From Candidatus Scatosoma pullicola (GTDB taxonomy: Bacteria > Bacillota > Clostridia > Christensenellales > Borkfalkiaceae): a DNA stretch of 43,556 nucleotides. Position numbers and translations under genes: made by a program. Shown piece by piece: positions 16,770-35,213 of this stretch. Numbering within the stretch: position 1 is the stretch's first letter; every line of letters starts with the position of its first letter. The notes under the pieces were generated by a model. That model ran no database searches. It saw nothing but the letters and a program-made list of their open reading frames with translations, and was not told the DNA's origin. The DNA lies in assembly GCA_018712725.1 (NCBI GenBank), contig DVGN01000061.1:1-43556 (forward strand), given 5' to 3'.

Positions 16770-16919
16770 CCTCCCTTTGCACAAGGGAGCCATGATGGGG
16801 GGGGGCGGCAAAAGCGCCGCCCAGATCTCTCCTTATGACAGGGGAGCGTGTCGCACCCCACCCCATGCCTCCCCTTATGGTAAGGGGAGGTGTCACGAAG
16901 TGACGGAGGGGATAAGAGT
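16770..16919 (+). repeat. Type 1 half copy and full type 2 repeat
   Basis: CTCCCTT-TGCAC-AAGGGAG (16770-16790, right half of type 1), then type 2 at 16866-16919: CCTCCCCTTATGGTAAGGGGAGG, stem GTCAC-GAA-GTGAC, GGAGGGGATAAGA. A structured element starts directly after it. Confidence 0.8.
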
Positions 16920-16920
16920 A

Positions 16921-17112
16921 AATCCGCAAAAAGGGCGTCACTTGTTATGCACTTTTTGCCCTTGTGAAAACGGAAACAAGGTGAAACGAGCGGCAATGCC
17001 GCGAGAGAGGAAAGAAACCGGCAGTCAGCCGCACGGCGTGTCGCCGGTGTCTGTCCTATATAATCTTTCCGCAGTCCCCTCGTTAAATTTTTCTCTGAAA
17101 AAATTTAACGAA
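16921..17112 (+). repeat. Structured repeat element, copy A
   Basis: About 190 bp. Conserved head from AATCCGCAAAAAGGGC to CTTTTTGCCCTT; stem CTTGT...ACAAG; small stem GCGGC-AAT-GCCGC; GGAAAG (16010-block, before AAACCGGC) pairing with CTTTCC (17066-17071); stem ACCGGC...GCCGGT with an inner GCCG-CA-CGGC; tail hairpin CGTTAAATTTTT...AAATTTAACG (17081-17110). Copies B (29628) and C (34963) share the plan with different stem sequences. Followed by the right half of a type 2 repeat (17120-17162). No convincing protein is encoded; an open frame through it is not conserved in copy B. Confidence 0.8.
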
Positions 17113-18309: not shown

Positions 18310-18521
18310 GCGGCGCCCGCGCGGAGTCGGGTTTTGTTGCTTTTCTTTTGCCCCGCAAAAGGAAAACGACGAGCATTTGCGGAAAGATTTGACGGAGAGA
18401 CAGCCGGACGACCGCGGGCGCGCGGCGGGTGCCGCCCGATTGCGGTTTTCCCCGCCTCGCGTCTCATGTCCCAAGGGGCAAGTGAAAAAGGAGTTTGAAG
18501 GGGGCAGGGGTGAGATGAAAG

Positions 18522-18556
18522 GAAAAACGACGCCTTCCCGCGATAGCGGGAAGGCG
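18522..18556 (-). terminator. Terminator after natB
   Basis: CGCCTTCCCGC (18531-18541) pairs with GCGGGAAGGCG (18546-18556); TCGTTTTTCC follows on the minus strand. Confidence 0.8.
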
Positions 18557-18636
18557 CCGGAAAATCGGTCCGAGCGTTTGAATCCGTCCGATGATTTCGG
18601 GAAAGACGATCCGGTCTACGGCTTTAAGCCGTCCGA

Positions 18637-29408: not shown

Positions 29409-29587
29409 CTCTATGCCTTCCCTTATGGTAAGGTGGCGGCACACCTCATTCTCATGCCTCTCCTGATGATAGGAGGGTGTCGCACCCTCTTTCTATGCCT
29501 CCTCTTATGGTAAGGGAAGGGGTGCCCCATTCCCATGCCTCCCCTTATGGTAAGGGGAGGTGGCACGGAGTGACGGAGGGGATAAGA
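29409..29587 (+). repeat. Type 2 repeat array, partly decayed
   Basis: Four left arms in a row (TTCCCTTATGGTAAGG, CTCTCCTGATGATAGGAG, CTCCTCTTATGGTAAGGG, CTCCCCTTATGGTAAGGGG), the earlier ones increasingly mismatched, then the right part with stem GGCAC-GGA-GTGAC and GGAGGGGATAAGA. The linker with TTTCGATACAGCCAATCGAAA (29595-29617) leads into structured element copy B. Confidence 0.78.
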
Positions 29588-29627: not shown

Positions 29628-29847
29628 AATCCGCAAAAAGGGCGTCACTTGTTATGCACTTTTTGCCCTTACTCGGCGCGGAGTGCCGAGCAGGAAAGGA
29701 AGGGAACTTTGCCCCAACGGGGCAAAGAGGGAGGGAAAACCGCGATTTAACGGAGCAGCGCTCCGCGCGCACGCGGTTGTCTCTCCGTTAAAATTTTCCG
29801 CAAGTCACTCGTTGCTTTTGTTTTGCAAGCAAAAGAAAAGCAACGAA
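29628..29847 (+). repeat. Structured repeat element, copy B
   Basis: Same head as the other two copies (AATCCGCAAAAAGGGC to CTTTTTGCCCTT), but the inside is diverged while the stem plan is kept: CTCGGC...GCCGAG; TTTGCCCC-AAC-GGGGCAAA; AACCGCG...CGCGGTT with inner GGAGC-AGC-GCTCC; GGAAAA with TTTTCC; conserved TTTTCCGCA; tail hairpin CGTTGCTTTTG...CAAAAGAAAAGCAACG (29810-29845). This copy gives the strongest evidence of compensatory change. Confidence 0.8.
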
Positions 29848-34796: not shown

Positions 34797-34962
34797 CTTA
34801 TGGTAAGGGGGTGTCGCACCCACCCATCATGCCTCCCCTTATGGTAAGGAGAGGTGGCGCGCACCTCTTATGCCTCCCCTTATGGTAAGGGGAGGTGGTG
34901 CGTAGCATCGGAGGGGATAAGAAAGCCGGATTTCGATACAGCAAATCGAAACGCCGAAAATC
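34797..34962 (+). repeat. Type 2 repeat array with linker
   Basis: Three left arms (around 34797, 34831 and 34872; the last is intact), right part with stem GGTGC-GTA-GCATC and GGAGGGGATAAGA, then the linker TTTCGATACAGCAAATCGAAA, leading into structured element copy C. Confidence 0.78.
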
Positions 34963-35153
34963 AATCCGCAAAAAGGGCGTCACTTGTTATGCACTTTTTG
35001 CCCTTGTAAAAAACGGAAACAAGGTGAAACGAGCCGCAGGCGAGAGAGGAAAGAAACCGGCAGTCAGCCGTACGGCGTGTCGCCGGTTTCTGTCCTGTAT
35101 AATCTTTCCGCAGAATCATCGTTACATTTTTTTTCGCGAAAAAATGTAACGAA
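34963..35153 (+). repeat. Structured repeat element, copy C
   Basis: Same head and nearly the same core as copy A, with differences confined to stems and loops: GCC-GCA-GGC where A has GCGGC-AAT-GCCGC; inner stem GCCG-TA-CGGC; full ACCGGC...GCCGGT closing with TTTC; tail hairpin CGTTACATTTTTT...AAAAAATGTAACG (35120-35151). Followed at once by a type 1 repeat. Confidence 0.8.
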
Positions 35154-35160
35154 CCTCCTT

Positions 35161-35213
35161 ACAATCCCTCAGTCAGCTATGCTGACAGCTCCCTTTGCAC
35201 AAGGGAGCCATGG
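35161..35213 (+). repeat. Type 1 palindromic repeat
   Basis: ACAATCCCTCAGTCAGC-TAT-GCTGACAGCTCCC...GGGAGCCATGG, 20 nt before the stop of the next minus-strand gene. Confidence 0.82.

Follow-up and report, generated by a model that had tools for sequence, protein, structure and literature searches.

The window analyzed here, a 43,556-nucleotide contig of the Candidatus Scatosoma pullicola draft genome (G000), contains three copies of a folded repeat (Table 1). A covariance model built from the window copies and sibling copies (R1), scanned over the window without filters, placed all three exactly where a preliminary description of this DNA had located them. All three copies have the same first 43 bases, which bears out the almost invariant head of ~43 bp reported there; beyond this head, copy 3 is 60–65% identical to copies 1 and 2 and has its own stems. 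The next-best R1 place is a degenerate relative on the strand opposite to the three copies, in which, by eye, just the stem 4 domain and the tail (about 18333–18466) can be recognized. Among eight window ORFs compared with Pfam, none matched a transposase, integrase, nuclease or helicase.

Table 1. Copies of the folded repeat in the window, the parts of copy 1 and associated repeats
Feature	Positions	Strand	Basis and remarks
Copy 1, A type, whole unit	34963–35153	+	R1 206.7 bits; R2 35.7 bits at 34971–35154
Copy 1, head hairpin, loop GTCACTTGTTAT	34968–35001	+	Single-sequence fold; helix 1 of the alignment
Copy 1, stem 2, CCTTGT/ACAAGG	35002–35024	+	Single-sequence fold; helix 2
Copy 1, stem 3, GCC/GGC	35033–35041	+	Alignment, helix 3; absent from the copy 1 MFE fold
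Copy 1, stem 4 domain, GGAAAG/CTTTCC enclosing AAACCGGC/GCCGGTTT and GCCG/CGGC	35048–35109	+	Helices 4–6
Copy 1, tail hairpin	35120–35151	+	Single-sequence fold; helix 7, double changes in 6/13 pairs
Copy 2, A type	16921–17112	+	R1 209.5 bits; 89% identity with copy 1 in aligned columns
Copy 3, B type	29628–29847	+	R1 145.6 bits
Degenerate relative	18333–18563	-	R1 28.8 bits, E 2.6e-7; sequence reading
Type 2 palindromic repeat upstream of copy 1	34870–34922	+	Sequence reading
Type 2 palindromic repeat upstream of copy 2	16865–16917	+	Sequence reading
Type 2 palindromic repeat upstream of copy 3	29535–29587	+	Sequence reading

The unit is about 190–220 bases long and consists of a head, stem 2 (S2), stem 3 (S3), a stem 4 (S4) domain and a tail, with conserved linkers between the hairpins. 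The head, described earlier as almost invariant, is itself a hairpin (GCAAAAAG-N-GC, loop GTCACTTGTTAT, GC-N-CTTTTTGC), and in 5 of 40 aligned G000 copies its inner pairs are altered on both sides, TCCC/GGGA replacing the usual letters. S2 has an extra internal hairpin in some copies, S3 reads GCGGC/GCCGC or TTTGCCCC/GGGGCAAA in other copies, and the tail hairpin terminates in AACGAA(AC). All stem pairs named in the preliminary description are present in the window copies, and two further details required revision. The GGAAAG and CTTTCC stretches before and after stem 4, taken for single-stranded blocks, can pair in 83% of cells, with this outer pairing absent from the copy 1 MFE fold; the three tail hairpins, taken to be unrelated, include close variants at 16921 and 34963, the 29628 tail alone being of another type.

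The repeat is far more abundant than the three copies first noted: the model matches at least 41 places in G000. Searching this 2.0 Mb draft (112 contigs) with the 34963 copy yielded 52 BLAST pieces; 41 places were extracted with flanks, and 40 entered the alignment. Since 8 of the 35 fetched stretches hit a contig end inside their 400-base flank, as is usual for repeats in drafts, the G000 copy counts are lower bounds. RNAalifold predicted 33 pairs from the 40 copies, 11 of them with double changes. For the named 50-pair structure, 17 pairs were doubly changed versus 8.4 after shuffling (0 of 500 shuffles as high), corresponding to 73 versus 14.6 doubly changed cells in a test that shared descent inflates; the earlier statement that the stems change letters and keep pairing is thereby substantiated. 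Real copies had 94.3% of paired cells, against 89.1% in shuffled ones, with helices 4 and 5 weaker (83% and 87%). Sliding the partners by 1–3 columns lowered pairing from 94% to 48–53%, a flattering control because the structure was read from the same sequences. Folded singly, the window copies each outperformed all 200 dinucleotide shuffles (z of -4.8 for 34963, -4.3 for 16921 and -6.3 for 29628). Over helices at least half formed, G-U cells outnumber A-C cells by 62 to 30, a tally drawn from related copies in which 43 of the 92 cells fall in helix 4.

Several familiar identities were considered for this fold and rejected. A conserved protein, already judged absent in the preliminary description, finds no common frame across the 40 copies: a frame of at least 60 amino acids is open in at most 17 of them, and copy lengths are not frame-keeping. 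ARAGORN detected no tRNA or tmRNA in the window or in seven loci; one copy (L038, 401–579, minus strand) contains a tRNA T-arm-like stretch, ACAGGTTCAAGTCCTGT, at which its siblings differ and where ARAGORN finds no tRNA. For a promoter within the unit and for integron attC sites, the assessment was by eye alone. Rfam 15 gave no match in the window at gathering score, and a lax search of five loci gave seven matches, none on a unit. Extending the lax search to 20 loci produced five matches, among which SorY (L177, L174) and YenS (L165) overlap units at 22–26 bits versus cut-offs of 80–111. As every Rfam match on a unit lies far under its cut-off, a known RNA family was rejected; the structured repeat family is real and lies outside Rfam.

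A scan for the head pattern in genome_contigs (84,980 species by its description) returned ten stretches, three apparently unrelated by eye and seven with the element, all seven from the Clostridia drafts MAG.400 (G061), BRZ_LV bin15 (G062) and E10 bin181 (G063). A viral-contig scan gave one match, apparently unrelated. Past the common head, the units of these relatives diverge in sequence, and the hairpin order is retained. RNAalifold on 11 relative units predicted 35 pairs, 19 of which show double changes. A second covariance model (R2), built from the same 11 units of two other genomes with the window copies excluded, recognized precisely the three window copies, at E values of 7e-10 to 2e-8; under default filters the window gave no other match up to E 10.

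Using an anchored unit finder on loci of G061, G062 and further relatives, we collected 64 units, or 58 without false and duplicate ones. Their S3 arms are 98.5% paired with 24 distinct arm pairs, and their S4 arms 97.9% paired with 36; the tail arms, with one bulged base, are 93.8% paired versus 73.5% when shuffled. The S3/S4 split was picked to maximize pairing. Applied to shuffled bodies, this split search gave 11.0 of 18 Watson-Crick pairs versus 17.4 in real units, with no real unit within the shuffled range. The GTGA before S3 and the tail ends are no evidence, since the anchors force them. In the second lineage, a UUCAC within the head loop, the pre-tail UCAC and two GUGA(A) stretches complement one another, so that the possible long-range GUGA/UCAC pairings may be in competition; the 58 units carry these anchors because the finder requires them. 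At three places (L058 5859, minus strand; L105 1241 and L124 1949, plus strand), the same head hairpin is followed by an unlike, longer hairpin chain (CGTCGCCGCAAACTTTGC...), and the head thus seems common to at least two element types.

The composition of the relatives' stems bears on the level at which pairing is kept. Under a split that admits Watson-Crick pairs alone, the 406 inner S3 cells comprise 405 Watson-Crick cells and a single G-U cell, and S4 has 390 of 406 Watson-Crick cells, nine G-U and four A-C. With a split neutral to both, G-U and A-C cells number 9 and 12 in S3, 28 and 15 in S4, and 7 and 6 in the tail; a split chosen with G-U treated as pairing enlarges the apparent G-U asymmetry. 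The strand asymmetry of wobble pairs is therefore weak or absent. So few G-U pairs argue for DNA-level upkeep, toward which the one near-pure Watson-Crick stem leans. Such upkeep would be expected if arms were copied by template switching at hairpins and exchanged between copies, leaving a passive hairpin-rich repeat whose folded product is unselected. Template switching can produce perfect stems and multibase compensatory changes, according to the portion of PMC8794818 considered here, and arm changes between orthologous copies are indeed block-like. We nonetheless hold arm copying to be quite improbable as the whole account, given that the linkers and head loop are conserved too, that S4, the stem enclosing other hairpins, also covaries, and that S3, S4 and tail form two linked classes (52 of 58 units concordant), a linkage suggesting that the unit works as a whole.

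The repeat was found in one family of Clostridia, apart from one weak match outside the window's family. R1, at E up to 0.001, matched 4 of 61 genomes, with at least 41 matches in G000 and 5 in the congener G028; single matches in G007 and G032 are weak, and the element is not recognizable there. Presence among congeners is thus patchy in this set. R2 matched 19 of 81 genomes around G061, the best with at least 31 matches each, and 7 of 297 genomes in the window's order, six from the window's family (G000 counted) and one, weakly, elsewhere; absences in these searches are soft, because those covering more than 40 genomes ran under stricter filters.

Comparison of corresponding sites revealed changes in place. 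Between G061 and G062, whose compared flanks are 85–98% identical, seven corresponding sites carry element sequence in both genomes by eye, and six of them hold different bodies. Bodies differ at L060/L062, L105/L114, L055/L121, L089/L117 and L086/L115; at L097/L116, a tail-like hairpin alone remains in one genome and other DNA fills the place of the body; at L113/L119, the body is common to both, and one genome has an additional unlike unit adjoining. At L116 (G061:C4) and L097, the same two genes flank the element in one genome and unrelated coding-looking DNA in the other. Outside this tally stand L063/L122 (agreement up to a head, then difference and contig ends), L107/L120 (unalignable), L099/L118, L062/L123 and L110/L124.

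Between G000 and G028, two sites (L004 and L008) are cleanly empty in the congener, the whole repeat block being absent; the missing blocks measure several hundred bases, more than one unit, and no target duplication is seen at either. At L002 and window 16921, both flanks are present in G028 with other sequence between them and no R1 match on those contigs, and for window 34963, window 29628 and L005 one flank alone was found. One copy, beside a putative rpmB (by eye), is common to both genomes: its middle is nearly identical, and the two genomes differ in both arms of its head and tail stems. The mobility proposed in the preliminary description thus gains indirect support from two clean empty sites, patchy presence and differing bodies, but a clean one-unit insertion with target duplication was not found in the G000/G028 and G061/G062 site comparisons.

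The copies lie between genes. A crude codon model called no gene overlapping any of 25 G000 copies and placed 14 of 19 upstream genes co-directionally; a simpler ORF pass gave a different orientation picture, and because the two crude callers disagree we make no orientation claim. In the relatives, unit ends adjoin stop codons or precede Shine-Dalgarno-like stretches. Among 47 relatives' tails, crudely assigned to frames with some doubtful cases, 18 face a convergent frame, whose stop lies 0–6 bases away in 17, 21 have a start at 4–124 bases, and 8 have nothing. The earlier observation that each copy sits at the edge of a type 2 palindromic repeat extends to the genome: with loose patterns, this palindrome occurs within 45 bases upstream of 37 of 41 G000 copies and downstream of 27. 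Mobilization along with the palindrome, also proposed there, could fit G000, but many units of the relatives have other flanks. Intergenic regions are packed with palindromic repeat families other than the folded repeat, ATGCCTCCCC...GGAGGGGATAAG and TCCCTCAGTCAGC...AAGGGAGCC, at window 34870–34922, 16865–16917, 29535–29587 and 35170–35210, and palindromic repeats of like form occur in the fetched relatives.

It is possible that the repeat acts as RNA. The copies could be functional elements in messenger leaders or trailers, governing stability, processing or translation, and amplified because they are useful where they land. The linkers and loops conserved across lineages, the placement of the relatives' unit ends relative to stop codons and Shine-Dalgarno-like stretches, and the rpmB-adjacent copy kept in two genomes with compensatory arm changes would all suit such a role. 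It is unlikely on balance, since neither gene association nor orientation is consistent, the two crude callers disagreeing on the latter, corresponding sites hold different bodies and congener presence is patchy. Moreover, at L004 and L008, the unit sits between the upstream gene and the apparent promoter of the next gene and is therefore outside that gene's leader. Of the new ncRNA or RNA-based mobile element first proposed, the kept fold, the lack of a frame or Rfam match and the repeat-like dispersal stand; the RNA label is less secure, given little or no wobble asymmetry and a stem nearly free of G-U that fits DNA-level upkeep at least equally well.

As to what might move the repeat, the genome-wide mobilizer search covered Y1_Tnp and RVT_1. 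REP/REPIN sequences with RAYT transposases are high-copy intergenic hairpin repeats, and the IS200/IS605 or REP/RAYT kind is marked by hairpins at its ends, which are not inverted repeats, and by one strand that folds. The folded repeat resembles this kind in all three features, and, like REP/REPIN, it is an intergenic hairpin repeat in high copy. It could accordingly be a derivative that a Y1 transposase of the same genome moves in single-stranded DNA form: of 13 element-bearing genomes, 4 have Y1_Tnp, and G028 has it interrupted by one stop. However, Y1_Tnp is absent from G000 (draft 89.8% complete) and from eight other element-bearing genomes, and one of 13 genomes that lack listed matches has it too. 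A Y1 transposase as mobilizer is unsupported, and we consider this origin very improbable. The unit also differs from REP/REPIN in its length of about 200 bases and its five or more stems. A reverse transcriptase as common mobilizer was likewise rejected, RVT_1 being present in G061, G062 and G036 and absent from G000 and G028. Comparing the 5' end of one A-type copy with the reverse complement of its 3' end gave 6 of 30 identities, that is, no terminal inverted repeat.

We read the folded repeat as akin to BOX elements or to the 'mobile/repeat sequence candidates' known from ncRNA surveys, with a more elaborate fold. BOX elements of Streptococcus are, in the parts of PMC3049150 drawn on here, modular, folded, non-autonomous intergenic repeats of mostly 67–637 bp; their transposition was inferred, not observed, and some copies were reported as transcribed. 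The repeat shares this modular build and inferred mobility (PMC3049150). Set apart from BOX by that description, it appears unlike in sequence, forms a longer hairpin chain with compensatory arm changes and, in relatives, two linked body classes, and has no terminal inverted repeat or IS partner that we found. Mobile/repeat sequence candidates are structured motifs with many copies per genome, a class that accommodates the present family, with at least 41 copies in G000, at least 31 in the best relatives, and covariation. Genes for transposases, integrases, nucleases or helicases are frequent associates of such candidates. One of them, MRSC-65-2, is likewise structured, present in dozens of copies per genome, inconsistent in gene association and possibly DNA-acting (PMC11109978); its occasional proximity to transposase genes and its UYCCGG repeat set it apart by description. 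MITEs, as defined in the sections of PMC2229807 and PMC3049150 at hand, are also short, folded, non-autonomous and dispersed, but in the folded repeat we found neither a terminal inverted repeat nor, at the two empty sites, a target-site duplication. Human microbiomes contain thousands of candidate structured RNAs, according to the part of PMC8040213 considered, and the family may be among them. Among the papers listed by searches of open-access PMC, one of these with short sequence words, we recognized no description of it.

Taken together, these results probably reflect a non-coding, non-autonomous interspersed repeat unit whose folded form is recognized in trans and then copied or moved. 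For this we count the matches in G000 (at least 41), the patchy distribution (19/81 and 7/297 genomes), covariation in two lineages, recognition of the window copies by R2, two empty sites in G028, six of seven differing G061/G062 sites, the lack of a conserved frame and the 0/25 overlap with genes. One strand of the unit would fold when single-stranded, and a trans-acting factor would recognize the folded form and copy or move the unit. Mobility is suggested by the patchiness, the empty sites and the differing bodies. Copies would persist through their placement next to stop codons and translation starts, which leaves genes intact. Against the trans-mobilized unit, no mobilizer, terminal inverted repeat or target duplication was found, and the empty sites lack whole blocks. 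Recombination between copies could also account for the differing bodies, as could stepwise loss and gain within a repeat-rich slot, and the 17 of 18 convergent-frame tails 0–6 bases from a stop could mean a function there. If the repeat is moved in trans, its mobilizer would have been lost or be of another kind than the Y1 and RVT_1 types searched. More speculatively, and rather doubtfully, the repeat could amplify itself, with its folded single strand, be it RNA or DNA, as the form that is copied; resident units would be overwritten in place by other units, and whole hairpin bodies thereby exchanged at fixed chromosomal sites by a novel enzyme.

The family offers a test case for how high-copy non-coding bacterial elements spread without a known transposase, and for whether compensatory changes in stems are proof of RNA function or can arise from DNA-level arm copying. 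Both questions are testable through close relatives whose same sites carry different bodies.
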